In this document: one piece after another, positions 1 to 12,084 of the stretch | Numbering within the stretch: position 1 is the stretch's first letter | Layout of the letters: every line of letters starts with the position of its first letter | DNA from: Candidatus Moraniibacteriota bacterium | Lineage (GTDB): Bacteria; Patescibacteriota; Minisyncoccia; Moranbacterales; UBA11712 | Direction: 5' to 3' | Length of the DNA: 12,084 nt | NCBI GenBank assembly: GCA_003157295.1 | Contig: PMJF01000076.1 | Span: 1-12,084 of the forward strand | Made by a program: the position numbers and the translations under genes | Notes under the pieces: generated by a model | What the model was told of the DNA's origin: nothing | Databases searched by the model: none | The model's input: the letters and a program-made list of their open reading frames with translations, nothing else

Positions 1-309
1 GATTATCTTCGCTTCAAAAAAGGGGGCGAATAAGTGCGTAAATATGGCTAAAAATAGAACAGTCACCCAAACCAAAGCTCCTCCCATCAAAGGAGTTCCG
101 TTTTTGCTCTTATGAAGCGCGTGATAAATAGGCGCCTTTTGGCCGTCGACGGAATTTTCTTTGATCTTTATGCCAATCTTGTATTTATAGAGAAAATAAG
201 CCAGAAGTGGCGTCCACGCCATAGCCACCACAAAAGCCAGGGTACCCAGGATCCATATTTTTAGAGCGGCCATCGCGGCCGGAATAGTTGTAATGTCGGC
301 GAAATGCAT
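1..309 (-). CDS. mraY: Phospho-N-acetylmuramoyl-pentapeptide-transferase, N-terminal part (cut by window edge)
   Basis: MraY moves phospho-MurNAc-pentapeptide from UDP onto undecaprenyl phosphate, making lipid I at the cytoplasmic membrane, the first membrane step of peptidoglycan synthesis. Only the first 103 codons are present; family members are about 320-370 residues. I translated this by hand. Residues 15-42 form a hydrophobic helix and 74-97 a second one. Between them sits the family signature HALHKSKNGTPLMGG (residues 63-77), matching the MraY consensus H-x-K-x-G-T-P-x-M-G-G, preceded by the usual basic loop (IKIKENSVDGQKAPIY). The ATG at 309 begins one base after the stop of the upstream carboxypeptidase gene, with a weak GGAAA 6-9 bases before it, so the two are surely co-transcribed. 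The catalytic aspartates lie beyond the window. Confidence 0.93.
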   Translation of the reverse strand, partial: MHFADITTIPAAMAALKIWILGTLAFVVAMAWTPLLAYFLYKYKIGIKIKENSVDGQKAPIYHALHKSKNGTPLMGGALVWVTVLFLAIFTHLFAPFFEAKII

Positions 310-310
310 A

Positions 311-1327
311 TTATTTCCAAATATAATTCTCAAAAGTCCAGTCGATGAGTTTTTTCATATCGGCCCATCGATCATTGTCATTGAGTATTACGGCGATTAT
401 CTTATGCTGTCCGTCCAAAGGATCGGCAGCCGCCAGCATCAGGGATTTTCCCGCCTTATAGGTAAAGCCTGTTTTCCCTCCCAGGCAATTTGGAATTTGA
501 TCCAGAAGAAGATCCGTATTTTTGAGCTTATGAGTATACCTCCCGTCGATCGAACAGATGTTAGTTTCGGAAGTCTTTGTTATGCTCCATATTTTGTCAA
601 AACGCATCGAATAAGCGGCGATGCGAGCGATGTCGTAGGCGGACGAATAGCAGCCTTCCTCGTCAAGCCCGGAAGGATTGCAGAAATGAGAATCCATCAA
701 ATTCAAATCCCTGGCTTTTTCGTTCATGAGAGCGGCAAACTCTTTTTGCGAACCGGCAATATGTCTTCCCAGTGCGATGGCCGCGTCATTGGCGCTGTCG
801 AGAAGCATGGCCTTCATCAGATCTCCGACCGTAACTTTCTCGCCTGCATGAAGCCTTTCATCCACACAGTGGCCGGTTGTGGGACAACCGACCTTGGTTC
901 CCTCGGTTAAAAGAGGTTCTTGATCAATGGTCACGGGCTCGTCAAGATCTTTCACGTTCTCCATGACCAAAACAGCCGTCATCATCTTAGTGAGAGATGC
1001 GATAGGCATATTCTCCCTTCCATTATCGTAATGCAAAATTGTTCCGGAATCGACATCAATGACAACGGATGCACCAGAAAAGATCTTGATATCGGAATAA
1101 TCTTCCTTCCTTTGAGGGATCAGGCCGGAATTTGCACTTTCTTTCTTTTGGCTTGAAAGACTGCCGGCAAGACTTTTTTCATTGGAAGATGCTTGGCTTT
1201 CCGTAGATGCTCCCTCGACTTGGGCCGCCACAGGTTGACTCATGTTTTTGGGCGCCGAAAAAAAACCGAACAGGTAATATTGGACGGGAAGAAAAAGGAT
1301 CAGGATTATATTAGCAATAATGCTCAT
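311..1327 (-). CDS. D-alanyl-D-alanine carboxypeptidase (PBP5/DacA-DacF family, peptidase S11)
   Basis: This serine enzyme trims the terminal D-alanine from peptidoglycan stem peptides outside the membrane. All three penicillin-binding motifs are present in order: SLTK (111-114, catalytic Ser111 and Lys114), SAN (178-180) and KTG (285-287, in GGKTGFT). Residues 1-24 are a hydrophobic signal anchor; 28-75 is a Ser/Gln/Glu/Lys-rich, low-complexity linker, then the catalytic domain runs to the C-terminus. At 338 residues it lacks the C-terminal beta-sandwich domain of PBP5, so it must be held at the membrane by its N-terminus. An oddity is six cysteines (148, 154, 216, 226, 258, 281), all in the external domain, with the first two in a small loop GCPTTGHC. 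The start is fixed by an AAGGAG seven bases before the ATG. It follows scpB and precedes mraY by one base. Confidence 0.95.
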   Translation of the reverse strand: MSIIANIILILFLPVQYYLFGFFSAPKNMSQPVAAQVEGASTESQASSNEKSLAGSLSSQKKESANSGLIPQRKEDYSDIKIFSGASVVIDVDSGTILHYDNGRENMPIASLTKMMTAVLVMENVKDLDEPVTIDQEPLLTEGTKVGCPTTGHCVDERLHAGEKVTVGDLMKAMLLDSANDAAIALGRHIAGSQKEFAALMNEKARDLNLMDSHFCNPSGLDEEGCYSSAYDIARIAAYSMRFDKIWSITKTSETNICSIDGRYTHKLKNTDLLLDQIPNCLGGKTGFTYKAGKSLMLAAADPLDGQHKIIAVILNDNDRWADMKKLIDWTFENYIWK

Positions 1328-1335
1328 AAATAAAT

Positions 1336-1341
1336 CTCCTT
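1336..1341 (-). promoter_or_regulatory. Shine-Dalgarno site of the carboxypeptidase gene
   Basis: On the minus strand AAGGAG is followed by ATTTATTT and the ATG at 1327. It is the only textbook Shine-Dalgarno site at correct spacing that I find among the thirteen genes, and it fixes the start of the carboxypeptidase. Confidence 0.75.
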
Positions 1342-1351
1342 ATATGCTTAC

Positions 1352-1930
1352 TCACAGCAATGGAATATTCTTTTCTGATTCCTGAAGATTAATATCAAGA
1401 AGTTCCGCCACTTTTTCATTTTTTGACAGCTTGTCCCATTCAGGAAGGTCTTTGACGCTTCCGACGCCCAAGTTCTTCAAAAAATTAAAAGATATCTCAT
1501 ATAGATAGCCTCTTATGTCGGCGGCTTCTTTCCTTTCAACGAGGCCCCGCAAAAGCAAGCTTCGCAAAACATAACTGCAGTTTACCCCTCTGATCGCTTC
1601 GATCTGCACGCGAGAGATAGGACCACGGTAAGCGACGATTGAAAGCGTTTCAAGAGCCGAGCGTGACAATTCGGCGCCGAGCTCTCCGCTGACCAACTGG
1701 TTCACAAATTCCTGATTTTCGGGGCGAGTGGCCAATTGCACAGAATCTTCTTTGGAAATGATCATTAATCCCCTTTTTTCCTGTTCATAATCCCGCTCCA
1801 GCTCCAGAATGGCCGCCTCTATATCATTCTTAGGAATATTGCAGATTTTTGCAAGGCGGGAGGCTCGAATTGGTTCGCCGGAGATAAAAAGAAGGCTTTC
1901 TATAACGGATTTGAGTTTTAATAACTCCAT
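1352..1930 (-). CDS. scpB: Segregation and condensation protein B
   Basis: ScpB dimers bind ScpA and complete the SMC-kleisin complex that condenses and segregates the chromosome. The protein is 192 residues, normal for the family, and built of two winged-helix domains (about 1-80 and 88-165). The second carries the diagnostic stretch ALETLSIVAYRGPISRVQIE (92-111), followed by AIRGVN and VLRSLLLRGLV. The GRPxLYxTT element that usually follows is altered to RGYLYEISFNFL (140-151), so its wing has diverged. A DLPEW segment (161-165) resembles the usual C-terminal DLP. The ATG at 1930 lies 16 bases after the scpA stop, with a T-rich leader and no Shine-Dalgarno site. The scpA-scpB order is the classical one. 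Confidence 0.95.
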   Translation of the reverse strand: MELLKLKSVIESLLFISGEPIRASRLAKICNIPKNDIEAAILELERDYEQEKRGLMIISKEDSVQLATRPENQEFVNQLVSGELGAELSRSALETLSIVAYRGPISRVQIEAIRGVNCSYVLRSLLLRGLVERKEAADIRGYLYEISFNFLKNLGVGSVKDLPEWDKLSKNEKVAELLDINLQESEKNIPLL

Positions 1931-1946
1931 AAAAAAACTTTAGCAA

Positions 1947-2693
1947 TTATGTAAAAACTTCGGCTTTCGATACGCTGATCGCATTCTCTTGACTGCTAAA
2001 CTTGGAAATTCTTATATCTTCAAATAATTTATCCTGCTCAACCATCACGATTCTCTGTTTTACCAGTTCAAGGAGGGCCAGGAAGCTGACAATCACCTCG
2101 ATCTTGTCCTTGGCCGAAGCCTTGAGGTCCGAAAAGCTGATCTCGATCCTCTCCAGCAACGTTTTTTGCAGTTCACTGATCTTATCCTCCAGAGTGAGGA
2201 TATCCCTCACCGCTTCCTCGGGAATTTTCTCGGGAAGGATTATTTGTTCAATGATCTTATTATAGCACTTCTTGAGATCGAATAAATTCACATTATCGGG
2301 AGGAGAAAAAATGTTCGCAACCCCCAGCAAATAATCCCTTGAATACGCGAGATTATTTTTCTGGAGAAGCGCGTTTATTTTTTCGGAAATTTGCTTATAT
2401 TCCCGGTAAAGTTTGAGCTGTTCCTCGAGATCCTTGATCTCTTTTTCCTCCTCGGGCGTCACTTCGAGGGTCGGAAGAATATTGCGCGACTTTATCAGGA
2501 TTATCTTGGCAGCAATACTGATAAATTCGGATAAATGCTCAAGAGAAATATTCTGCTCCCGCTGGACATATTCAAGATAATCATCGGCCACTTTTGCCAA
2601 ACTCACTTCCGCAATATCAAGCTTCTGCTCCTCGATAAGGCGCAAAAGCAGCTCCAGCGGACCTTCGAATTTCGGAAGCATTACGTTATACAT
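1947..2693 (-). CDS. scpA: Segregation and condensation protein A (kleisin)
   Basis: ScpA is the kleisin that bridges the two SMC heads and recruits ScpB during chromosome condensation. The 248-residue protein opens with the family signature FEGPLELLLRLIEEQKLDI (9-27), followed by the conserved helix AAKIILIKSRNILP (61-74). The middle (80-120) is Glu/Lys-rich and probably helical; the C-terminus (about 160-235) is the winged helix that binds the SMC cap, with VSFLALLELVKQRIVMVEQ (202-220). The ATG at 2693 follows the stop of the upstream deacylase gene by a single base, so translation is likely coupled; no Shine-Dalgarno site is seen at normal distance. A second in-frame ATG at 2681 is less likely because it would shorten the N-terminus. 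Confidence 0.96.
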   Translation of the reverse strand: MYNVMLPKFEGPLELLLRLIEEQKLDIAEVSLAKVADDYLEYVQREQNISLEHLSEFISIAAKIILIKSRNILPTLEVTPEEEKEIKDLEEQLKLYREYKQISEKINALLQKNNLAYSRDYLLGVANIFSPPDNVNLFDLKKCYNKIIEQIILPEKIPEEAVRDILTLEDKISELQKTLLERIEISFSDLKASAKDKIEVIVSFLALLELVKQRIVMVEQDKLFEDIRISKFSSQENAISVSKAEVFT

Positions 2694-2694
2694 A

Positions 2695-3213
2695 TCACAT
2701 TTTCACGCTAAAAACTCCTTTCACTGGCTGTTCTATCTTTAGGTATTGCTTGGCTGATAACTTAATCGAATACTCGTATTCACCCGATCCGGCATAAATA
2801 TTTTTCTGCCTGGCCAGCAGATTATCCATATAAATATCCAGTTTCACTATTTCGCGAAAAGGCGGAGTAGCGCCCACTTTCCCCGGCATATTTTTTTTCA
2901 TCCAAACCTCTTTGGCGAAATTCAGCGATTTTGCCATTTTTTCTTGTTGTTTTTTCAGATTTATGTTTATGACCTTTAGTAATTTCTTTTTGTCCAATTT
3001 TTTACTGGCCGAAAGCAACGCCAAAACATAATTTTTGTCCGTTTTCATGACCAAAGCTTTGGCGATTTCTTCCGTCTTTATTTTTTTCTTCAACTGGTGC
3101 TTTTGAGCCGTTTGGGCGGTATCCCAGGCAGTATAGGTGGTTTTATGCTCAATAACTTCGTATTTATACCCGGCCGCATCAAGATACTTGATAATTTTTT
3201 TTGAGATAGCCAT
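2695..3213 (-). CDS. YbaK/prolyl-tRNA editing-domain protein (aminoacyl-tRNA deacylase)
   Basis: Proteins with this fold hydrolyse wrongly charged tRNA (for example Cys- or Ala-tRNA(Pro)) in the cytoplasm. In the 172-residue sequence I see the family elements in order: an early His (H23) and Thr-Ala stretch, EIAKALVMKTD (49-59) with the likely catalytic Lys52, a VLALLSA strand (63-69), GKVGATPPF (111-119), a MDNLL strand (129-133) and the loop AGSGEYEYSIKL (141-152). The protein is very lysine-rich between 40 and 95, a region where the family is variable. The exact tRNA substrate cannot be read from the sequence. The gene lies between an MFS transporter and scpA. Its ATG follows six A residues and no Shine-Dalgarno site; a TATAAT box lies ten bases upstream. 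Confidence 0.85.
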   Translation of the reverse strand: MAISKKIIKYLDAAGYKYEVIEHKTTYTAWDTAQTAQKHQLKKKIKTEEIAKALVMKTDKNYVLALLSASKKLDKKKLLKVININLKKQQEKMAKSLNFAKEVWMKKNMPGKVGATPPFREIVKLDIYMDNLLARQKNIYAGSGEYEYSIKLSAKQYLKIEQPVKGVFSVKM

Positions 3214-3223
3214 TTTTTTATAT

Positions 3224-3229
3224 ATTATA
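3224..3229 (-). promoter_or_regulatory. Possible -10 box before the deacylase gene
   Basis: The minus strand reads TATAAT, ten bases before the ATG at 3213. If it is a real -10, transcription would begin within a few bases of the start codon and the message would be almost leaderless. No convincing -35 stands at 16-18 bases, and the short gap is AT-rich, so this could be chance. Confidence 0.25.
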
Positions 3230-3236
3230 TGTTAAT

Positions 3237-4448
3237 TTAACGTTTTTTTCCGGAAACCGGATTAAGGACAGGCGGGATCCGGCTGCTCGCCATTCTGAGA
3301 GCAAAAGGTATGCCGGTGAGCATCATGAGTCCCACAAAAAGAAAGATGTAACGAATATGGGCGAAATAAACTAGCGGTGCGGCAACCGCCAGTCCCAAAA
3401 TATAAGCCATGGGACGAACGCTGCGAAAAAAGTCGACTATATCCACATCTATCTGATCGATGCGCTTATAAAAATAGGAGTCGCGGAGGATCTCAATGAG
3501 ACTGGCGCCTATTCGGGTGGCGAAGAGAATGGCCGCCCAAATAAAATATTCGTGGGAGTGAATGAAAAAAATGATCGTGGTGGAAGCCGCCATCAAAAGA
3601 AGGGCGCCGATGATCATATCTTTTTCTTCGTATTTTTTGTCAGCCAAAACACCGGCCGGATATTGCAGCAAAACAAAAGGAATGAGCATGATCGAGAACA
3701 TCCCTCCGATCTTTGCCCAGGAAAAACCAAGCTCAAGGAGATAAAGAGGCGTATACACGATCATCAGAGCAAAAAAAAGCTCAAGGAGGAAGGAGATATA
3801 ATATATCCGTAAAACGTTCTTGCGCCGAAACACCTTTTTCATCAATAAAAAAAATCCAGGATCTTCAATTTCACAGTCGGTGACCTTTTTGAGCTTTAAA
3901 ACGGCTATTAGAATAACGACAATGAGCGTCAGGGCGGCCACAAAAAAAACGGAGCGTATGCCCCAGCGGCTGATCAAGATCCCGGCGATAAGGGGCGCGA
4001 TCAAATACCCGGCGTTCATAATGGTCAGATAGGCGCCACGTATTTTTCCGGTTTTCAGATCCCTGGAGCAGGATTCAAGCAGAACATCCAGATCTACCCA
4101 CATAAGCACCGTTGAAGCGATATAAATGACCAACAACCAAACGCTAAAACGGTTGATCGGAAAAAATACCAGCATCAGCACAACAAGCGCCTTGGCCGTC
4201 ATATTTGCCAAAAAAACCCTCACTTTTCCGTAGCGCCTTACCAGATGGTGCCAATTAAAGATCAAAATGAGGGCCAGAATATATGCGGCAATGAAATAGA
4301 AAGTGATATTATCGCTCCCGAGAGCGATCTTGAAGTAATCTGACTCCAAATAAAGTATCAAAGCCGAGGAAATTCCGAGAAGAAAAGAGCATAATGACAA
4401 AATTTTCAAAAGCGGTAAATTTAGTTTTTCTGTGTGTTTTATTTTCAT
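3237..4448 (-). CDS. Major facilitator superfamily transporter
   Basis: A 403-residue polytopic membrane protein with about twelve hydrophobic segments and a loop near 185-212, the expected 6+6 MFS arrangement. The loop between helices 2 and 3 has a degenerate motif A (RRYGKVRVF, 71-79); the equivalent loop in the second half is well conserved as GVLADKKYEEKD (266-277). The stretch GKIRGAYLTIMNAGYLIAP (134-152) resembles helix 4-5 of drug and sugar efflux members. The substrate cannot be told from sequence. The C-terminus is short and basic (GKKR). The gene starts 29 bases after the response regulator stop, so it may be read with it; the gap has no Shine-Dalgarno site. Confidence 0.88.
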   Translation of the reverse strand: MKIKHTEKLNLPLLKILSLCSFLLGISSALILYLESDYFKIALGSDNITFYFIAAYILALILIFNWHHLVRRYGKVRVFLANMTAKALVVLMLVFFPINRFSVWLLVIYIASTVLMWVDLDVLLESCSRDLKTGKIRGAYLTIMNAGYLIAPLIAGILISRWGIRSVFFVAALTLIVVILIAVLKLKKVTDCEIEDPGFFLLMKKVFRRKNVLRIYYISFLLELFFALMIVYTPLYLLELGFSWAKIGGMFSIMLIPFVLLQYPAGVLADKKYEEKDMIIGALLLMAASTTIIFFIHSHEYFIWAAILFATRIGASLIEILRDSYFYKRIDQIDVDIVDFFRSVRPMAYILGLAVAAPLVYFAHIRYIFLFVGLMMLTGIPFALRMASSRIPPVLNPVSGKKR

Positions 4449-4477
4449 TTATAATGAAACGCGAAGAGGATGTAGTT

Positions 4478-5299
4478 TTAATTTCCAATAAGTTCTTTTA
4501 CTTTCTCGACAATTTCACCGGGAGTAATTTGTGTTTTGACATAATACGCGCTGGCGCCCAGATCAAGCGCTTGTTTTACTTCGCTATCCATGGCCGAGTT
4601 AGAAAGAATGATGACAGGCGTATCTTTTGTCGCTTCATTCGCCCGAAGCTCTTTCAGCGCTTCGTAGCCGTTCATAGCCGGCATCATCATATCAAGAAGG
4701 ATACAGACAAAAAGACCTTTTTCCGCTTCTTTGATCCCCCATTTTCCATTTTTGGCCGCTACCACCTCGAAGCCTTCCTGTTTCAACTTATCCCCGAACA
4801 TCTCAATGAAAATATCCTCGTCTTCGATTATCAGCACTTTGTGCCCGTTGATTTCTTTTTTTTCAATAAATTCAGGAGCCGAAGGCACTACCTCGGACGG
4901 CGCTTCCTGCGGAAGTGATGTCGGTAAAGGCGAACTGCCGACCAATTCTTTCACTTTATCCGCCAGCTGGGACGGGGTAAAATTCGATTTTGTCAGAAAT
5001 CCCGCCGCGCCCAAACCTGTGGCCCGGTCGATATCTTCCTTGGCGCTCAAGTTACTAAAAACATAAATGGGTATGTCCTTGATAGATTCCTCTTTCTTCA
5101 CGGTTTCCAATATCTCAAATCCGTCCATATCCGGCAAAACAACATCCAGGAGAATAAGATCAGGCTGCCACAGAACAGCTTCATCCTTTACCGCTTTTCC
5201 GCTGGTCACGACCCTGATCTCAAAGCCTGCGCCCTGCAATTTTTTTTCGTATATTTCAACCAACATTGGATCGTCTTCAACGATCATTATTTTAGCCAT
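4478..5299 (-). CDS. Response regulator with two receiver domains and no output domain
   Basis: The protein (273 residues) is two CheY-like receivers joined by a Pro/Ser-rich linker (about 122-150). Receiver 1 has acidic residues E8-D9-D10, phospho-acceptor D52 (LILLDVVLPDMDG), switch S82 and K104. Receiver 2 has E159-D160-E161, phospho-acceptor D203 (LLDMMMPAMNG), switch S233 and K255. Both are complete, so both should accept phosphate. There is no DNA-binding, enzymatic or kinase domain, so it would act by protein contact or as a phosphorelay intermediate. It lies downstream of a sensor kinase, separated by a sugar-nucleotide dehydrogenase gene; partnership with that kinase is likely but not shown. 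The ATG follows the leader AAAAAAAT. Confidence 0.92.
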   Translation of the reverse strand: MAKIMIVEDDPMLVEIYEKKLQGAGFEIRVVTSGKAVKDEAVLWQPDLILLDVVLPDMDGFEILETVKKEESIKDIPIYVFSNLSAKEDIDRATGLGAAGFLTKSNFTPSQLADKVKELVGSSPLPTSLPQEAPSEVVPSAPEFIEKKEINGHKVLIIEDEDIFIEMFGDKLKQEGFEVVAAKNGKWGIKEAEKGLFVCILLDMMMPAMNGYEALKELRANEATKDTPVIILSNSAMDSEVKQALDLGASAYYVKTQITPGEIVEKVKELIGN

Positions 5300-5331
5300 A
5301 TTTTTTTATTATCATCTTATTGGACACTGTT

Positions 5332-5360
5332 ATTTTACCGTATTCAAGGTAAATTTGCAA
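5332..5360 (-). promoter_or_regulatory. Sigma-70-like promoter for the response regulator
   Basis: On the minus strand TTGCAA (5355-5360, four of six matches to TTGACA) and TAAAAT (5332-5337, five of six to TATAAT) are separated by exactly 17 bases, in the 73-base gap upstream of the response regulator. The implied transcription start is near 5325, giving a leader of about 25 bases. It would let the regulator and the MFS gene be expressed apart from the upstream genes. Predicted by eye only. Confidence 0.45.
5334..5353. promoter_or_regulatory. Dyad inside the response-regulator promoter, possible operator
   Basis: The sequence TTTACC, an 8-base gap, then GGTAAA forms a perfect 6+6 inverted repeat between the -35 and overlapping the -10. 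Its 14-base centre-to-centre spacing is suited to a dimeric regulator. It has no T-tract after it on the minus strand, so a terminator is unlikely. Six-base arms can arise by chance in AT-rich DNA. Confidence 0.3.
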
Positions 5361-5372
5361 TTATGCCTAAGT

Positions 5373-6641
5373 TTATCGTCCTATTCCTTTGTACTTTATC
5401 CCTAGCGCCAACAGTTTGTCCTTATCCAGGCAGTTCATTCCGTCCACGATCAGACCGATCCCGTGTTCTTTAAATTTTTCCACAGGAATTTTCAGAAACT
5501 CATCGTGACCCGTAGCGAGAAAAATAGCTTCTGATCTATCTAGAACTTCCTCAACATTATTGGCGTTGGAAAGTTTGGGAATAAACGGGTCGTAGATATT
5601 GAGAACGGCGCCATGCTTTTCCAAAAGCTCAATGATCTTGAGAGCCGGACTTTCGCGCAGATCACCAACATTCGCTTTATAAGAAACTCCCAGGAGGCCG
5701 ATCTTGGCGCCCTTCAACGATTTGCCCAAGCTATTAAGCTCGTCTTGCAAAAGTTCGACGCTATATAATGGCATTCCGTTGTTGATGGCGCGGGCTACTC
5801 GCAAAAATTGATGATCAAAATCATTTTCCTTGGCTTTTTCAATGAGATAATACGGATCGACCGGAATACAATGCCCGCCCACGCCGCAACTGGGCCAATG
5901 AGCCATAAAAGCAAAGGGTTTGGTCGAGGCGCCCCGGATGACATTGACAACGTCTATATCCATCAGATTGAAAGATTTTGCCAGTTCGTTGACAAAAGCA
6001 ATGTTGATATCCCGAAAAGAATTTTCCATGATCTTGACCGCTTCCGCTTCTCGAATGGTTTTCATCGGCATGATTTTGGCGCCCACAATGCTTTCATAAA
6101 ATTTCACGCTTTTCTCGAGTCCTTGCTCATCGAATGAACCGACGACGCGCGGAATATTGGAAACGTTCCATTTTGGGTCACCCGGATTGATACGCTCGGG
6201 ACAATGGGCGATAAAAACATCTTGGCCAACGGTAAATCCTTCTTTTTCGAAAGCCGGACGGACGAATTCCTCGCAAACACCCGGATTGATCGTTGATTCC
6301 ACAATCACCAGCGAGCCTTTTTTCATGTTTTTGGCCACGGTAACGGACGCGGAAATGACATAGCTCAGATCTGGATAATATTTTTCATCGACCGGCGTCG
6401 GCACGGCAATGATGAAAATATCGCAGTCTTTCATTTGAGATTCGTCGCGGATAACATTGATCTTCGCTTTCGGGAGCAATTCGTCGAGATATTTTTCCTC
6501 AACTATGTTTTCGCCCTTTTCGATTCTGGCCAGTTTTTTTTCGTCCTTATCGAACCCGTAGACCTCATAGCCATTTATCGAGCACAAAACCGCCAGCGGA
6601 AAACCGACGTATCCGAGACCGATAACGCAGACCTTTTCCAT
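5373..6641 (-). CDS. UDP-sugar 6-dehydrogenase (UDP-GlcNAc/UDP-ManNAc dehydrogenase type, WbpA/TviB/WecC-like)
   Basis: These cytoplasmic enzymes oxidise the C6 hydroxyl of a UDP-hexose twice with NAD+, giving a UDP-uronic acid for surface polysaccharide. Numbered from the chosen ATG (422 residues): NAD-binding VIGLGYVGFPLA (6-17), VPTPVD (80-85), ESTINPGV (116-123), HCPERINPGDP (146-156), the central ENSFRDINIAFVNELAK (206-222) and catalytic Cys258 in VGGHCIPVDPYYL. The FRDINIAFVNELA and TKPFAFM stretches resemble the N-acetylated-sugar branch more than UDP-glucose dehydrogenase, but the substrate is not certain. The open frame extends upstream to a GTG at 6740; I chose the ATG at 6641 because the Rossmann fold starts right there and the leader AAAAAAAT equals that of the response regulator. 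An ATG at 6653 is the alternative. Confidence 0.93.
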   Translation of the reverse strand: MEKVCVIGLGYVGFPLAVLCSINGYEVYGFDKDEKKLARIEKGENIVEEKYLDELLPKAKINVIRDESQMKDCDIFIIAVPTPVDEKYYPDLSYVISASVTVAKNMKKGSLVIVESTINPGVCEEFVRPAFEKEGFTVGQDVFIAHCPERINPGDPKWNVSNIPRVVGSFDEQGLEKSVKFYESIVGAKIMPMKTIREAEAVKIMENSFRDINIAFVNELAKSFNLMDIDVVNVIRGASTKPFAFMAHWPSCGVGGHCIPVDPYYLIEKAKENDFDHQFLRVARAINNGMPLYSVELLQDELNSLGKSLKGAKIGLLGVSYKANVGDLRESPALKIIELLEKHGAVLNIYDPFIPKLSNANNVEEVLDRSEAIFLATGHDEFLKIPVEKFKEHGIGLIVDGMNCLDKDKLLALGIKYKGIGR

Positions 6642-6679
6642 ATTTTTTTGCATGAGTTCTGATGAATTATTACTAAAAA

Positions 6680-6708
6680 ATCGTACCATAATCGGCACGA
6701 AAAGACAA
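6680..6708 (-). promoter_or_regulatory. Possible extended -10 promoter for the UDP-sugar dehydrogenase
   Basis: On the minus strand TTGTCT (6703-6708, four of six) and TACGAT (6680-6685, four of six) stand 17 bases apart, and TG precedes the -10 by one base (TGG-TACGAT), an extended -10. The implied start lies near 6673, about 30 bases before the ATG at 6641. It sits in the 98-base gap after the kinase stop. Predicted by eye. Confidence 0.35.
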
Positions 6709-6739
6709 ACCTCCGAAGCATAGATATTAATTACAAACA

Positions 6740-8404
6740 CTACCGACTGACTGGCAACTCCAATATAAACCGGCTCCCTTTCTCCTTACCGGCCGATTCG
6801 GCCCAGATCTTGCCTTGATGGGCCTCGGTCACTTTTTTGGCTATGAACATTCCGAGTCCCGTTCCGTCGGTGTGGTAATGACTGATCTCTTTTCCGCGCA
6901 CGAATTTATTGAAAATATTCTCGATGTCCTCTTTATCCATCCCGATTCCGGTGTCGGAAACGATCACTCGGACGGTATTTTTCTGCTCCATGGCGTTGTG
7001 GTCAAAAAAACCGCCATTTTCCACCCGAACGGTGACACCGCCTCTTTGCGTGTACTTGATCGAGTTATCGACCATATTGGAAATGACTTCTTTTATCTTG
7101 GTAATATCAATCTTTATTTTTTGAGATAGCTTCTTCGGCTTTTTCCATTCGAGATAAAGCCCCTTGGCTTTCGCCGAAAGATCGAGCGTGCTAACTGCTT
7201 CGTCGATCAGATCCTCGATTTGCGCTTCCTGAAAATCAAACTCCATCCGCCCGGATTCAATGCGGGAAATGTTCAGCAGGTCCTCAACTAATTGCACCAG
7301 CCTTTCATTGGAGATATATACTTTCTCCAACGCCGTTTTTTGTGTTTCCGACACCTCGCCATAGGTTCCCTCCAGAAGAAGCGACACAAAGCCCTTGATG
7401 GCGGTGAGAGGCGTCCGCAGCTGGTGGGAAGCAATGGAAATAAACTCTGATTTAGCTTTGTCAAGTTGGTGGAGCTTGTCATTCGCTCCCGCTAGTTGCG
7501 CAGAAAGTTTTTCCAACTCTTCTTTGCGCTCAACTTCGAGTTTGACGGAACGGACGAGAATATATCCAAAGATTATGGCTATCGCAAATGTTACGCCGGT
7601 TAAAATTTGATTCGTAGTATTTTGAATGAAGAAAAATTGCGCCCCAATCCCAATAATTAGCCCGACTACAAGGGCTTGAGAGGCGATCAATTTTATCTCA
7701 AAAGCTTTATATCTGACTATGAGGTACGCCAGAAAACCAATAAAGATTGGCATTGCAAAAAAGCTGTATTGAGTGATCTCCCATTTTTCTATAATTGTCC
7801 CATAAATATTTATCCACGAAATAACAACATTTAGAAAGACTGCTCCAATCGCGAAATAAAATATGCGATCTCTATTTCTCTTGTCTGTTTTTAATAGTTT
7901 ATATATAAGATAGAAAATAATCGAAAGAGATAGTAATCCTTCGAGAAATCTATAGTAATAAATCAGTAGTCCTTGGGTTCCCTCGCAATTTGTTGCATCA
8001 AATCTAGATACATTTATACTAGTCGGGATAAAAAAAATGAAGCCAATTAGCAATATTCCGAAAATAATTTTTATTTTAAAGTTTGCATCTCTGTTATTTA
8101 AGAAAACATAAATAAAATATAAGGTGGAAACTGAAACTATAATCTCCCAAAAATTAATGAAAGACCAAAAAAACAGGACTTGCCTGCTGTCAAACGTGGT
8201 CCAAAGGACAATATCCGAAATAGCCCAGATAGAAAACGAGGCTGCAATTAAGAATAGAATTTTACTGGGCAGACTTCTGCTTTTTATGAATATATACGCA
8301 CTTACAAAAAGAGAGATGATAATTGATGGAATATGAGAATAGTATAAAAGAGAAGGAACGGCGACGTGACAATTTTCAATATTCGTAATTGAATTGAAAT
8401 CCAT
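6740..8404 (-). CDS. Membrane sensor histidine kinase
   Basis: A 554-residue kinase. Residues 20-286 hold about nine hydrophobic helices, similar in layout to 7TM-type kinase sensor regions, with a short Cys-containing external loop near 130-147. A basic, heptad-like coiled coil (287-318) leads to the HisKA domain with H-box SHQLRTPL (phospho-acceptor His327) and the second helix up to about 388. The ATP-binding domain has N-box ISNMVDNSIKYT (441-452), G1 DTGIGM (484-489), F-box-like FNKF and G2 GTGLGM (514-519), so it should be active. No PAS or HAMP domain is seen. The ATG immediately abuts the methyltransferase stop (TAA-ATG), suggesting one transcript. The sensor half is visibly AT-rich while the catalytic half is not. 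Its likely partner is the double-receiver regulator two genes downstream. Confidence 0.94.
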   Translation of the reverse strand: MDFNSITNIENCHVAVPSLLYYSHIPSIIISLFVSAYIFIKSRSLPSKILFLIAASFSIWAISDIVLWTTFDSRQVLFFWSFINFWEIIVSVSTLYFIYVFLNNRDANFKIKIIFGILLIGFIFFIPTSINVSRFDATNCEGTQGLLIYYYRFLEGLLSLSIIFYLIYKLLKTDKRNRDRIFYFAIGAVFLNVVISWINIYGTIIEKWEITQYSFFAMPIFIGFLAYLIVRYKAFEIKLIASQALVVGLIIGIGAQFFFIQNTTNQILTGVTFAIAIIFGYILVRSVKLEVERKEELEKLSAQLAGANDKLHQLDKAKSEFISIASHQLRTPLTAIKGFVSLLLEGTYGEVSETQKTALEKVYISNERLVQLVEDLLNISRIESGRMEFDFQEAQIEDLIDEAVSTLDLSAKAKGLYLEWKKPKKLSQKIKIDITKIKEVISNMVDNSIKYTQRGGVTVRVENGGFFDHNAMEQKNTVRVIVSDTGIGMDKEDIENIFNKFVRGKEISHYHTDGTGLGMFIAKKVTEAHQGKIWAESAGKEKGSRFILELPVSR

Positions 8405-9650
8405 TTATTTTATTTTACTAATCGAATATTCAATGTCTCCCTGCACACCGCACAAAGTATAAGACAAATAAACGTCAAACTCATCACCTTTTCTCACCTT
8501 CACATCCTGAATTGGTAAGATCAATGGAAAACTATAAGCGGAAGAACAGCCGAAAACAGATTTATCAAAAAAAACTGTTTGTCCGCTGATCCTAACGCCA
8601 TTAATTATGCCGTTTTTGTTTATTTTCAATCTAATTATTTTACTTATTTTTTCTTTGGCATTTTTTTTGTTGAAGTTTACGCTAAGATATTTTATTTTTT
8701 TTGCGAATGAAGTTGACTTAGTTTCTGGTATTCCGGGATAATCAAACCTGAATATGTCTAGCTTGTGGCCATAAAACTTTGTGTTCTGCGATACTAAATC
8801 AACATAAGAATCATATTGATTCAGAAAAACCTTCACATTTTTTTTTCCGAACTTCAAAATGTTATTCATGACCGGAATTTGAAGTTCTTCAATCAAACCC
8901 GTTGAAATCATTTCACAAATAATTACATCGACTCTTTCAGGCAGTTTGACGTTGAGTGCATTTCCATAAATTACATCAATTACATCTCCAAACCCATTCT
9001 TTGCGAAATTTTCTTTTAGAGTTGCAGCGCATCTCCTGTCAATTTCAACTACATATACTTTTTTCGCGCCCGCCTCTGCCGCAAACAGCGCTAAAATTCC
9101 GGTTCCAGTTCCGACATCGACGACAATATCGTTTTTCTTAACCGTATTAAATATCGATTTCTTGAAGAAATTGGTTCTTTTTTTGTCTATTAGGCAGCAA
9201 TACGCTCCTTCGGAAACAGACCAGTATTTTTTTGTTCCTTCTATTTGCATATATTTTATATCCAACCCCACTCTTTAAGTTTTTTATTATCTTCTTCAAT
9301 AAACTTTAATCCTATATCCGTTCTATAAAACATTTTTGGAATCACCAATTTATCGATTATATCATATGTTTTTTTTCTAGCGTCTTGTGGCGTATTGCCG
9401 GCTCCAGTGACATATAGTATATAGCCATTACTCCCTGCAATCTGAAGATATTCTTTTCCATTTTTTCCAGGCTTAATACAAACTTCTTCAAAATGTAACT
9501 GATCCCTCTCTTCCCTTGTCAGTCTGCCTTTAAATAATATATTTACACCTTTTAAGTAATACTCGTTTGATATGGATTTATACGGAAAAGGTGGAACAGC
9601 AACGGAAACAACGATCCCAAATCCTTTTTTATATTCTAATTCATATTTCT
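7600..9650. other. AT-rich island inside the gene cluster
   Basis: Hand counts of sampled 60-base lines here give mostly 22-43% GC (for example 22% at 7861, 23% at 8041, 30% at 8821, 25% at 9301) against 40-60% in sampled lines of flanking genes (57% at 6781, 62% at 5881, 55% at 10261). It covers the sensor half of the kinase, the methyltransferase and the C-terminal part of the ATP-grasp gene. Edges are approximate and fall within coding sequence. Confidence 0.5.
8405..9250 (-). CDS. SAM-dependent methyltransferase, PRMT-like (double-E loop)
   Basis: Numbered from the ATG at 9250 (281 residues). The Rossmann half has motif I VDVGTGTGILALFAAEAGA (44-62) and the acidic SAM-ribose residue in VVEID (E70). 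After strand 4 comes CEMISTGLIEE (112-122): Glu113 and Glu122 are nine residues apart, the spacing of the double-E loop of protein arginine methyltransferases (SEW...E). A beta-rich C-terminal half (about 145-281) ends in a PRMT-barrel-like stretch with GQTVFFD and VKVRKGDEFDVYL. Where PRMTs have the THW loop this protein reads SFP (240-242). A GTG at 9271, overlapping the upstream stop by 16 bases, is an alternative start. The target is unknown: it may methylate a small amine or guanidino compound, a peptide or a protein. It sits 5 bases after the ATP-grasp gene. Confidence 0.85.
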   Translation of the reverse strand: MQIEGTKKYWSVSEGAYCCLIDKKRTNFFKKSIFNTVKKNDIVVDVGTGTGILALFAAEAGAKKVYVVEIDRRCAATLKENFAKNGFGDVIDVIYGNALNVKLPERVDVIICEMISTGLIEELQIPVMNNILKFGKKNVKVFLNQYDSYVDLVSQNTKFYGHKLDIFRFDYPGIPETKSTSFAKKIKYLSVNFNKKNAKEKISKIIRLKINKNGIINGVRISGQTVFFDKSVFGCSSAYSFPLILPIQDVKVRKGDEFDVYLSYTLCGVQGDIEYSISKIK

Positions 9651-10554
9651 CTCCGTTAGCTACGACCATCAAAAATTTATGCCAAGAAGGCAGGTGAAGC
9701 TCGATTTGCGCTTGAATTGTTGGGCACCCAAACCTTGCAGTAATTTCTAAAGGATGCACACTCCTCTCATCCACTATGCAATTAACATCAAAATAACCTT
9801 TAAAGTTAATTTTTTGAAGATAGGGTTTTATTTTCTGGAGAGTTTCCTGAAATAATTTATTTTTTTCTTCAGGCGTATACCACATAAGAGTGCCCATTTC
9901 TCCAGTAAGAGGACCAATGTCTCCGTTAAATAACCTTTTGTGCTCAATATTAATTTGGACGGGACCTACCCAGTCATTGCCGTTAAAAAACCTTCCGCAT
10001 GCGATCTCAACACCATCAACTTTACGTTGAAGGCTAATGGATTCGATAGACGTTTGACTTTCATAACTCTCCAGAACTTCTAATGCATCGCTTCCATCCT
10101 TCATCGTGCCTATGTAAGTTAACGCGCTCGCGTGTTTGTTTTGCTTTACCACCCAAGCGCCACTATGTTTTTTTATAAATCTTATCGCTGATTGTATATT
10201 ATTAAAATCGAATGTCGGGATTGTCTTAATTCCGCATGTTGCCATTATTTTTTGCGCATAGGCGCGTTCTTTTTCCAATTTATCGCCACCTTCGCTTCCC
10301 CCGACAACCTGATAGCCCTCTTTTCGGAGATCATCCTGAATTTTTCCATAGCCAACATCATCAAAAACGATCAGCCCGTCTTTTCCGACCCAGACCAATT
10401 CTTTTTTCCAATCATCCGTTTTTTCGACCATTCCATCAAGGCAATCTTTTCTGCTTTCATCCTCGATATATAATCTTACGTCACAACCCTCCTGCTTGAG
10501 CCTTACAGCGAGATCAGCCGCGATCAGCTCCCCTGACACAAATAATACCCTCAT
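9256..10554 (-). CDS. PurD-like ATP-grasp ligase, probably not a purine enzyme
   Basis: ATP-grasp ligases join a carboxylate to an amine through an acyl phosphate. The 432-residue protein aligns by eye with phosphoribosylamine-glycine ligase: GGSEGGDKLEKERAYAQKIM (85-104), VVKQNKHASA (135-144), GDIGPLTGEMG (211-221, PurD GPNTGGMG), LEITARFGCPTIQ (269-281, PurD LEFNxRFGDPETQ) and a C-terminal domain with VTGAGNTPQDARKKTYDII (382-400) and MFYRTDIG (408-415). It lacks the N-terminal GGREHA element that opens true PurD; in its place is LFVSGELIAADLA. At the metal site Glu270 stays but the PurD Asn two residues on is Thr272, and RFGDPE has become RFGCPT. The substrate is therefore probably different. 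Eight bases separate it from the EamA gene upstream; the methyltransferase follows after five bases. Confidence 0.85.
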   Translation of the reverse strand: MRVLFVSGELIAADLAVRLKQEGCDVRLYIEDESRKDCLDGMVEKTDDWKKELVWVGKDGLIVFDDVGYGKIQDDLRKEGYQVVGGSEGGDKLEKERAYAQKIMATCGIKTIPTFDFNNIQSAIRFIKKHSGAWVVKQNKHASALTYIGTMKDGSDALEVLESYESQTSIESISLQRKVDGVEIACGRFFNGNDWVGPVQINIEHKRLFNGDIGPLTGEMGTLMWYTPEEKNKLFQETLQKIKPYLQKINFKGYFDVNCIVDERSVHPLEITARFGCPTIQAQIELHLPSWHKFLMVVANGEKYELEYKKGFGIVVSVAVPPFPYKSISNEYYLKGVNILFKGRLTREERDQLHFEEVCIKPGKNGKEYLQIAGSNGYILYVTGAGNTPQDARKKTYDIIDKLVIPKMFYRTDIGLKFIEEDNKKLKEWGWI

Positions 10555-10562
10555 AAGTGCGT

Positions 10563-11576
10563 TTAGTTGCTAATTATATAGACTCCAATAGCCATTATAA
10601 CAGTTGCCAGAGCTTTAATCCAAATGCCATCCAGCTGCTCTTGATAGATCCTTTTCATGATCGACGTTTTCTTTTTTAAGATAAGCCAAAAGATAAACAA
10701 GATCAACAGGCTATCGATCAGAATGAATACCGGAACAAAGGTCTCAATGGTTGCGACATAAGATACAGAAGGGGCGATATCAATCGCCCTTTGCGAAGCC
10801 AGGTTACCCAGGAAAGAGATCCCTTCAAATAAAAGGAAGATCAGGGCAAATCTCTTTATAAGTGGAAAAGGATTTCTTTTTTTTGCCAGCGCAAAAAAAA
10901 CGCCGGCGAGGAAGGCTCCTAGCGTAAAGCCCAAAAATCCGATCAAAAAACCCTGGTCGCCCAATCCTCGCGCAGACAGATCCGAGTAAACTTTGTCCTC
11001 AAAAACCATACTAAGCGATAAAATTATCACAGCCCAGATCATGACCCATAGATAACCGAAGGAAAATTTGTCGCGAAGTTTTTTGCTAACCGACAATAAA
11101 ATGGCGCCCAGCAACGTTATTCCCATACCTGCATACTTCAAAGCGGATAGCCTTTCTCCCCAAAAAAAGAAAGTCATGAGCGGCACGGCAATTATGGTCA
11201 GCCCCCAAATGATTTGAAGAAAAGCGACGTCATTATGTTTGAATAATGCCTTGAAGTAAAAATAGAAAGATGAAGTGAATAAAAAACCGCCCAAAAGGGC
11301 CAGCAAAACGATGGGGTCGATCCAGAACAGGCTTCCGCTTCCTCCAATTGACACAAATTGACCCACGTCTATTTTCAAAAAAAACAAAGATAGGATGCTG
11401 AATGGTATTATTTGGAAAATTCCTGATATGATCGTTCCATCTAGCTCATCGTCATATATTTTTCCAACAAAATATACGTCTATGACATTTACCGCCGCCC
11501 AAAGTACCGGAGCCAGAAAAGAAACTAGCATCCAGTGGTGCTTGAGAAATTCGGATATATCGGACAATAAAGCCAT
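10563..11576 (-). CDS. EamA/DMT-family membrane transporter
   Basis: A 337-residue membrane protein with about ten helices (approximately 15-38, 48-68, 87-111, 116-136, 146-164, 175-195, 208-231, 243-262, 270-300, 318-336), the drug/metabolite transporter arrangement of two EamA repeats. The first repeat ends with the typical WGERLSALKYAGMGITLLGA (139-158); the second ends with a parallel but degenerate stretch up to GVYIIS. Members export amino acids, metabolites or amines; the cargo here is not evident. Placed 8 bases before the ATP-grasp gene and 46 bases after the SpeD-family gene, it could export their product. I chose ATG 11576 over an in-frame TTG two codons upstream (11582). No Shine-Dalgarno site is seen. 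Confidence 0.88.
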   Translation of the reverse strand: MALLSDISEFLKHHWMLVSFLAPVLWAAVNVIDVYFVGKIYDDELDGTIISGIFQIIPFSILSLFFLKIDVGQFVSIGGSGSLFWIDPIVLLALLGGFLFTSSFYFYFKALFKHNDVAFLQIIWGLTIIAVPLMTFFFWGERLSALKYAGMGITLLGAILLSVSKKLRDKFSFGYLWVMIWAVIILSLSMVFEDKVYSDLSARGLGDQGFLIGFLGFTLGAFLAGVFFALAKKRNPFPLIKRFALIFLLFEGISFLGNLASQRAIDIAPSVSYVATIETFVPVFILIDSLLILFIFWLILKKKTSIMKRIYQEQLDGIWIKALATVIMAIGVYIISN

Positions 11577-11622
11577 CTGCAAAATTTAGCGTTTATTCAT
11601 TTCCCCACTAATTGATAATCGA

Positions 11623-12048
11623 TCAACAAATGATCTTTACCGGATACTTTGTCCCCCGCTTGATAAAATGCGTTTCAATGTCTTTCAAATTGAATTTTTT
11701 TCGGAAATACTCCTCTATAAACTTTCGATTCATCCCATTTTTACAGGTATAAACATCAATGCTCACGAACCCTCGATGCGGAAAAGTGTGGATGCTGATA
11801 TGGGATTCGGCGATTACCACGAAACCGCTCCAACCGCCTGAGTCATTGATGCCATTGTCCGCCGCTTTGTATGCTTGCGGTTTTCCGAGAATGTTCATTC
11901 CGACTTTTCCGGGAAGCTCCTCGAGACACTTCAAAACCAGCTTTTTTTCATTTAGCTTTTTGAAATTACCGCCGTAACCGTCGAGCGTGAAATGCTCCCC
12001 GAAATTGCATGTTTTTTTGGTTTTCCTTTTGAAAATATTGCTCAGCAT
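11623..12048 (-). CDS. SpeD-family pyruvoyl-dependent decarboxylase (AdoMet decarboxylase-like, possibly arginine/ornithine decarboxylase)
   Basis: This 141-residue proenzyme resembles the short bacterial/archaeal S-adenosylmethionine decarboxylases, which cut themselves to form a pyruvoyl group. The core is AESHISIHTFPHRGF (80-94): cleavage would fall between Glu81 and Ser82, with His87 at +5 and Cys102 at +20, the positions of the processing residues in the Thermotoga enzyme (S63, H68, C83). It should thus self-process. At +7 and +9, where AdoMet decarboxylases have Trp and Glu (WPE), it has Phe89 and His91; that Glu binds the SAM ribose in the characterised enzymes. Some SpeD homologues, including CPR ones, are known to decarboxylate ornithine or arginine instead. 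No spermidine synthase lies in the window. The ATG follows six A residues; only 36 bases of upstream sequence are visible. Confidence 0.88.
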   Translation of the reverse strand: MLSNIFKRKTKKTCNFGEHFTLDGYGGNFKKLNEKKLVLKCLEELPGKVGMNILGKPQAYKAADNGINDSGGWSGFVVIAESHISIHTFPHRGFVSIDVYTCKNGMNRKFIEEYFRKKFNLKDIETHFIKRGTKYPVKIIC

Positions 12049-12084
12049 TTTTTTACTTTACCCCAATACCGAATGTTGGAGTGG

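Follow-up and report, generated by a model that had tools for sequence, protein, structure and literature searches.

A kinase-centred, modular gene island in Patescibacteria that may encode a chemical signalling system built on an arginine-derived amine

What might a bacterium with a genome of about 1.02 Mb do with a decarboxylase, a membrane protein, an amide ligase and a methyltransferase encoded side by side? We examined this question for a stretch of 12,084 nucleotides (hereafter the window; contig PMJF01000076.1, positions 1 to 12,084) from a Candidatus Moraniibacteriota bacterium (assembly GCA_003157295.1, 90% complete), which lies in a contig of 27,993 bases. An initial annotation, made from the letters alone, had read positions 8405..12048 as a set of four genes for a SpeD-like pyruvoyl decarboxylase, an EamA exporter, a PurD-like ATP-grasp enzyme and a PRMT-like methyltransferase, which might make an amine, conjugate it to an acid, N-methylate it and export it. 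All four open reading frames were found on the minus strand, tightly packed as described. Their listed starts give spacings of 40, 8 and -16 bases, and internal ATG starts at 11576 and 9250 give the 46, 8 and 5 bases first proposed.

The boundaries of this set are too narrow. A histidine kinase gene (6740..8404, minus strand) adjoins the methyltransferase gene without a gap, just outside the four genes, and across genomes this overlooked gene is the most constant neighbour. The locus is better described as kinase-centred and modular, with the window form combining SpeD, EamA-like, ATP-grasp and PRMT-like genes, and it could represent a kind of chemical signalling not described before. In the reading that we prefer, and consider plausible but slightly short of probable, the enzymes would make and vary an agmatine-derived molecule, which would leave the cell by an exporter and be sensed by the kinase next door; chemistry, export and sensing are each predictions.

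Conservation of the island across genomes

Linkage was counted in 128 genomes of the window genome's order (Patescibacteria). A gene was called linked when it lay within 8 kb of a match to the kinase's seven-transmembrane (7TM) type sensor on the same contig, and expectations were calculated for sensor-bearing genomes. We note that p-values for these counts are rough, as genes were taken as independent and genomes as 1 Mb, and that ratios are safer. At individually fetched loci (L numbers below, with G for genomes and C for contigs), genes were called with a simple longest-frame script that may miss some (SpeD at L109 was unlisted). Proteins there were named by clustering with window proteins or with proteins themselves searched; the names serine hydroxymethyltransferase (SHMT), radical SAM, GNAT, formyltransferase-like, MFS, aminoacyl-tRNA synthetase and class I methyltransferase were given by eye only.

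The PurD-like ATP-grasp has a homologue at E <= 1e-40 in 36 of the 128 genomes and in 70 of 383 genomes of a class-wide draw. These proteins split by score, tree and context into type A, which includes the window protein and occurs in 32 genomes of the order, and type B, which occurs in 5 and more widely in the class; mean identity between the types is ~39%. Type-A genes lay near the 7TM kinase in 26 of 32 cases (0.70 expected). The same was true of 40 of 69 matches to a Cys-rich membrane protein (1.46 expected; some matches are pieces of one gene), 24 of 61 SpeD genes (1.04 expected), 6 of 17 deoxyhypusine synthase (DS) homologues (0.30 expected) and 17 of 72 SET proteins (1.10 expected). A further family, m13 (~265 amino acids; L105:6276-7064, L078:7851-8654 and others), was near the kinase in 18 of its 19 strong matches in the order, 14 of them at less than 200 bases, and five weak matches were elsewhere or fragments. 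One m13 member had no Pfam match and another no NCBIfam match.

The kinase module is wider in distribution than the ATP-grasp, as a sensor match at E <= 1e-10 was present in 79 of the 128 genomes. Strong matches were found in 29 of the 32 type-A genomes and in 29 of the 96 others (Fisher 1.2e-9), and kinase and Cys-rich protein were still linked in 19 genomes without a type-A ATP-grasp. To this we added a reading of 20 kinase loci without a type-A ATP-grasp, taken from 20 genomes out of the 29 that combine a strong sensor match with the lack of a type-A gene (a Cys-rich gene on the same contig was the reason for picking several of them), and of 8 loci outside the order, from 8 of 20 sensor-bearing genomes there. 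By hand tally, 27 of these 28 loci hold at least one of SpeD, DS homologue, ureohydrolase, SET, PRMT-like, GNAT or m13, and 19 of 28 do so when m13 is not counted; the sole exception, L120, has a contig edge beside the kinase. Genome-wide counts, for SpeD, DS and SET only, stood in for a control of random stretches.

The genes are thus linked, not scattered, in the 128-genome count, and several members are linked far beyond chance. The four-gene set itself was rejected as a conserved unit: among the loci read, the exact four stand together only in the window. SpeD is at 5 of the 32 type-A loci of the order (own genome, G040, G086, G087 and G109) and at L124, and among ATP-grasp loci the PRMT-like gene is found only in the window and at L027, so both are optional. 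Subsets of three of the four recur at L021, L027, L076, L110 and L124. What type-A loci tend to retain is the ATP-grasp, a membrane protein (EamA-like or of another family, k3) and the kinase, not SpeD or the PRMT-like gene. At L124, a single run holds genes for the Cys-rich protein, SpeD, EamA-like protein, ATP-grasp, kinase and regulator, with two other genes between.

Predicted chemistry of the enzymes

The SpeD-like protein (11623..12048, minus strand, 141 amino acids) is a pyruvoyl decarboxylase homologue, as first annotated (Pfam AdoMet_dc, 6.7e-24). Its pyruvoyl Ser, catalytic His and Cys align with those of solved class 1b SpeD chains, residues whose roles are described in PMC10407285. 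Spermidine synthesis via this enzyme was rejected because its genome has no SpeE: a search for PF01564 (Spermine_synth) gave no match and 0 candidates in the 90% complete assembly (G000). The segment ESHISIHTFPHRGFVSIDVYTC replaces the HTWPE..VFTC of a SpeD-SpeE fusion in G011, a genome of the same order (HTWPE, DVFTC), and the window protein has HTFPH, not the HTWPE of Thermotoga maritima SpeD and the G011 fusion. The W and E of the HTWPE segment presumably bind S-adenosylmethionine (AdoMet). HTFP is present in 21 of 21 SpeDs compared (20 of the 61 from the order, plus L124), as is DxYxC. Phe and Tyr are at plausible, approximate positions for the SpeDC diagnostic set (Gln, Thr, Phe, Tyr; PMC10407285 Figure 8), and the available part of that paper describes SpeD homologues from genomes without SpeE that can decarboxylate arginine or ornithine. 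The altered segment, the lack of SpeE, and the caldomycin synthase and agmatinase genes beside such SpeDs elsewhere indicate that the window SpeD is probably an amino-acid (arginine) decarboxylase, not an AdoMet decarboxylase.

Sister loci point to agmatine in particular. All six in-order DS homologues at kinase loci match the NCBIfam family for caldomycin synthase, and five of these loci also hold SpeD; two DS homologues of other context (L029 and contig 17 of the own genome) fail the family's cut-off (218 and 206). In Thermus, according to the portion of PMC10981699 available, caldomycin is made from two agmatines by a DS-type enzyme followed by a ureohydrolase. Caldomycin synthase couples agmatine, and its homologues at kinase loci make agmatine the probable product of the SpeD found there. 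The agmatinase cut-off is passed by the ureohydrolases of L123, L132 and L141; the one at L142 falls below it (164.7 vs 174.3), and that at L024 fails it and is nearest to arginase, below the arginase cut-off. For the window SpeD group, agmatine appears the most economical product, with ornithine decarboxylation as the alternative.

Two other arrangements of polyamine genes were seen. At L130 (G011:C7, ~84300-86200), the Cys-rich gene and the kinase are separated by a SpeD-SpeE fusion and another SpeE gene, so loci of this kind may also carry out classical aminopropyl polyamine chemistry. What looks like a separate polyamine set is spread over contigs C17, C25 and C82 of the own genome (L129, L020 and L128): a second SpeD, a type-B ATP-grasp, a DS homologue and, at the ends of two contigs, pieces of ureohydrolase.

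The ATP-grasp protein (9256..10554, minus strand, 432 amino acids) has the predicted PurD-like fold (GARS_A, 3.9e-16) and is a putative amide ligase. It is unlikely to be PurD itself, the name phosphoribosylamine-glycine ligase that some public records give to members of this family. It scored 123.1 bits against the purD equivalog (cut-off 288), and the PurD motif ExNxRxGDP, as in a canonical-type sequence at L033, is altered to ExTxRFGxP in most members, which makes glycinamide ribonucleotide synthesis unlikely; canonical identity was rejected on both grounds. Core residues K206, G214, P215, E270 and R274 are invariant in 34 type-A and 18 type-B sequences, and the N of the motif is T in 34 of 34 and 18 of 18, respectively. 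The D is replaced by C, W, F, S, Y, T or N in type A and by Y in 17 of 18 type-B sequences (otherwise F). This pattern suggests that type-A enzymes differ in their substrate and that type-B enzymes share one, a contrast that is weakened by mean identities of 51% within type A and 63% within type B. The own genome has one protein of each type. Type-B loci of its family occur with a ureohydrolase (which at L029 passes the agmatinase cut-off), and at L029 and L030 also with DS homologues.

In genome G109 (L071:5821-7670, contig C51), the SpeD frame runs into the ATP-grasp as one open frame; in G040 (L021), of the same genus, the two are separate frames. Graspetide-type peptide modification, prompted by a weak TIGR04188 match (19.3 vs 380 bits), was considered and dropped; no precursor peptide was recognised by eye, and no search aimed at one was made.

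The methyltransferase (8405..9271, minus strand, 288-amino-acid translation, likely start ATG 9250) has PrmA as its best Pfam match, with PRMT5 just over the cut-off, and its best matches in the Protein Data Bank (PDB) are PRMTs (6dnz at 5.8e-16), in agreement with the initial label. The double-E loop of PRMTs holds the guanidine, and both of its glutamates align with those of PRMT6 (CEMISTGLIEE with SEWMGYGLLHE). The THW loop is a motif of the PRMT C-terminal barrel; THW was not found by eye in the 288-amino-acid translation. SznE of the streptozotocin pathway is reportedly a PRMT-like methyltransferase of free arginine, and the window protein may be compared with it as a PRMT-like enzyme from a bacterium whose proposed substrate is a free guanidine. 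PRMT-like genes are also near SpeD at L110 and L117.

Making, conjugating, N-methylating and exporting an amine is still the most natural reading of these enzymes, and the caldomycin synthase and agmatinase homologues at sister loci suggest agmatine as that amine. The in-frame fusion of SpeD to ATP-grasp and the retained double-E glutamates are further points for an amine pathway. The part of this proposal that did not survive is its restriction to a set of four genes.

Membrane proteins, kinase and sensor matching

The EamA/DMT-like membrane protein (10563..11582, minus strand; listed start TTG, with ATG at 11576 possible) is a candidate exporter. Of 67 loci whose kinase falls in the same cluster as that of the window, 20 have an EamA-like protein only, 30 a k3 protein only and 1 both (Fisher 2.5e-6), a pattern expected of two interchangeable parts with a single task. 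Searches of the k3 family against PDB profiles returned only two rows, at E 0.26 and 0.30. At L066, L067 and L088_10, k3 stands behind an MFS-like stretch recognised by eye (MFS_1 12.7 at L067, cut-off 33.4). The Cys-rich protein is encoded at contig position 13575-14126, outside the window. Across 39 measured ectodomains of this family, net charge averages -31 (range -63 to -2), a composition that would suit holding polycations.

The kinase (HisKA 7.2e-20, HATPase_c 1.2e-25) carries a predicted multi-pass (7TM-type) sensor at residues 1-300. Its match to HisKA_7TM (PF16927) was 24.3 bits, below the gathering score of 28.6, and its AlphaFold2 model has a pLDDT of 82 and a pTM of 0.77. Searched against PDB profiles, neither the sensor nor m13 nor the Cys-rich family had a hit at E <= 1. 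A tandem-receiver response regulator (4478..5299, minus strand; two Response_reg stretches, 8.9e-45), whose family is present at 23 of the 67 kinase loci, is a candidate partner of the kinase.

Whether sensors go with the enzymes beside them was also examined. We compared sensor and kinase halves in 57 kinases that passed a sensor filter, and assessed sensor similarity against random sets after correction for kinase distance. Sensors were more alike at loci with DS (caldomycin) homologues (n=6, p=0.0008), at loci with a DapF-like epimerase gene (n=4, p=0.0024), at loci with SpeD and ATP-grasp (n=4 including the window, p=0.0087) and at loci with ATP-grasps of the EamA clade (n=12, p=0.0083). 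The DS sets and DapF passed the Bonferroni limit for eight sets. Kinase halves in these four classes were not significantly alike, except weakly at five in-order DS loci (p=0.026). At 24 loci with both proteins, ATP-grasp distance followed sensor distance given kinase (partial r 0.22, p=0.02) and did not follow kinase distance given sensor (r 0.06, p=0.28). Sensor similarity followed enzyme content in four locus classes, which share members; in three other classes it did not. At the DapF loci, 5 of 5 ATP-grasps carry GP[LM]GGETG and RFGSST, which are found in 0 of 29 other type-A sequences.

A signalling reading and its rivals

Together, these observations suggest how a modular island of Patescibacteria could make, export and sense a small arginine-derived amine, each step being a prediction. 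The SpeD homologue would decarboxylate arginine to agmatine, the PRMT-like enzyme would N-methylate the guanidine, and the PurD-like ATP-grasp would use ATP to join the amine to a carboxylic acid. The EamA-like protein would export the product. Outside the cell, the acidic Cys-rich membrane protein could retain it, the sensor of the neighbouring kinase could read it, or both, and the kinase would then signal to the tandem-receiver protein. A more elaborate version, which we regard as rather doubtful, is one of private chemical languages: conjugated or methylated guanidino-amines derived from agmatine would be produced by interchangeable cassettes, exported, concentrated by the polyanionic Cys-rich protein and read by matched multi-pass receptor kinases whose predicted sensor fold may be like that of G-protein-coupled receptors, with sensor and cassette exchanged together.

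Several results weigh against signalling. None of the 5 type-B ATP-grasps was near a 7TM kinase (0.08 expected), so the ATP-grasp family is not specific to signalling. The window's EamA-like protein matches Pfam EamA only below the cut-off (16.2 vs 28.2 bits), and 16 of the 67 kinase loci have neither membrane family. The response regulator has no Pfam family besides Response_reg and no recognised output domain. Sensor matching was tried on eight overlapping sets, counting the in-order DS subset (L071 is in three), and gave p=0.57 at loci with k3-clade ATP-grasps, p=0.21 at PRMT loci, a weak p=0.07 at m13 loci and p=0.085 with classes pooled. Finally, the five ATP-grasps of the DapF loci form one clade, so their shared motifs were taken as a single event and not counted as repeated coevolution.

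The strongest rival, in our view unlikely, is polyamine homeostasis, in which the kinase would sense intracellular or environmental (e.g. host-cell) polyamines and control the adjacent synthesis and efflux cassette, with no message sent. Kinases that regulate neighbouring metabolism are common, and at L123 and L132 guanidino-polyamine genes for SpeD, caldomycin synthase and agmatinase stand next to the kinase. However, many loci have no polyamine backbone enzyme and hold an ATP-grasp, m13, DapF-like or SET gene instead, and plain homeostasis does not predict that the sensor half, and not the kinase half, is matched to the enzyme set in some classes. Nor is the window locus the only polyamine set of its genome, which encodes a further SpeD, a DS homologue and pieces of ureohydrolase at other places.

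It seems quite unlikely that the product is an exported secondary metabolite (a metallophore, toxin or protective compound) with the sensor kinase as dedicated pathway regulator. Clusters for such metabolites usually have exchangeable tailoring enzymes, amide ligation by ATP-grasp enzymes and exporters, and the substrate motif differs among type-A ATP-grasps, as this explanation would have it. Against it, the link between kinase and Cys-rich protein persists in the 19 genomes without a type-A ATP-grasp, and inspection by eye of the loci read, which were not searched systematically for such genes, revealed no uptake receptor, resistance gene or known metallophore synthase. We consider it improbable that the enzymes modify the cell surface or a protein, such as the Cys-rich membrane protein, under an envelope-sensing kinase: SET and PRMT families usually methylate proteins, GNATs may acetylate them and the Cys-rich ectodomain gene is linked to the kinase, but small molecules are the substrates of SpeD, caldomycin synthase, agmatinase and DapF-type enzymes. 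Chance, or operon packing without shared function, might be expected in genomes of ~1 Mb where housekeeping genes (aminoacyl-tRNA synthetases, by eye) also recur nearby, but it is very improbable given linkage of about 15 to 37 times expectation over the 128 genomes and the same gene kinds beside the kinase outside the order.

Under the signalling reading, the island can be compared with known systems. Across genomes, its synthetic genes are genetically linked to a membrane histidine kinase, as expected of a synthase-linked two-component system, and CqsA/CqsS, LuxM/LuxN and Agr similarly have a synthetic gene beside a multi-pass membrane histidine kinase and response regulator. Unlike these, the island has no such synthase that we recognised; it has amine chemistry, swappable enzymes, two alternative candidate exporters and an extra acidic Cys-rich protein, and its signal role is a prediction. 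Polyamine pathway products, putrescine and spermidine, act between cells in Dickeya (PMC12239582) and Pseudomonas aeruginosa (PMC9241758), according to the available portions of both papers; the Dickeya text available describes SpeA and SpeC pathways with uptake by PotF and PlaP and mentions no dedicated adjacent receptor kinase.

The SpeDA and SpeDC enzymes of PMC10407285 are similar to the window protein in that SpeD homologues occur in genomes without spermidine synthase, as in the candidate phyla radiation (CPR) genomes cited in the part of that paper available, and in that SpeDs of the island are linked, at sister loci, to enzymes that use agmatine. Clusters listed in the paper hold SpeY, SpeB, AguA/AguB, Hss, CASDH/CASDC or SpeE. 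In its main text the words ATP-grasp and EamA are absent and methyltransferase is found a single time. Members of the NCBIfam family that matches the Thermus caldomycin pathway (PMC10981699) are present at six sister loci; that enzyme is not encoded in the window, and the available part of the paper describes no link to a kinase or exporter. As the initial annotation had supposed for its combination of genes, no paper describing this locus type was among the matches listed in the open-licence literature (most subscription papers are outside this scope), nor was a dedicated chemical communication system of Patescibacteria.

Genomes of Patescibacteria are reduced, and many of these bacteria live on other cells. 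Arginine-derived amine chemistry linked to a receptor kinase is a concrete, testable candidate for communication in this group, and agmatine, caldomycin and their methylated or acylated forms are the compounds to look for in co-cultures. If true, the reading would also suggest a role for the PurD-like ATP-grasp family and for several unnamed families.

Other genes flank the island. Upstream of speD and beyond the window, an SHMT-like gene (named by eye) follows at a distance of 4 bases, and then the Cys-rich gene. The SHMT-like gene was rejected as a member of the system because its protein shares no family with any other locus. Downstream of the kinase are a UDP-glucose dehydrogenase-like gene and then the tandem-receiver regulator. 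Lone sensor domains without a kinase part were seen at L023:2078-2923, L088:7364-8185 and L072:8566-9375. Locus L078 (G095:C11) holds two sensor kinases and two Cys-rich genes, which suggests a duplicated module.

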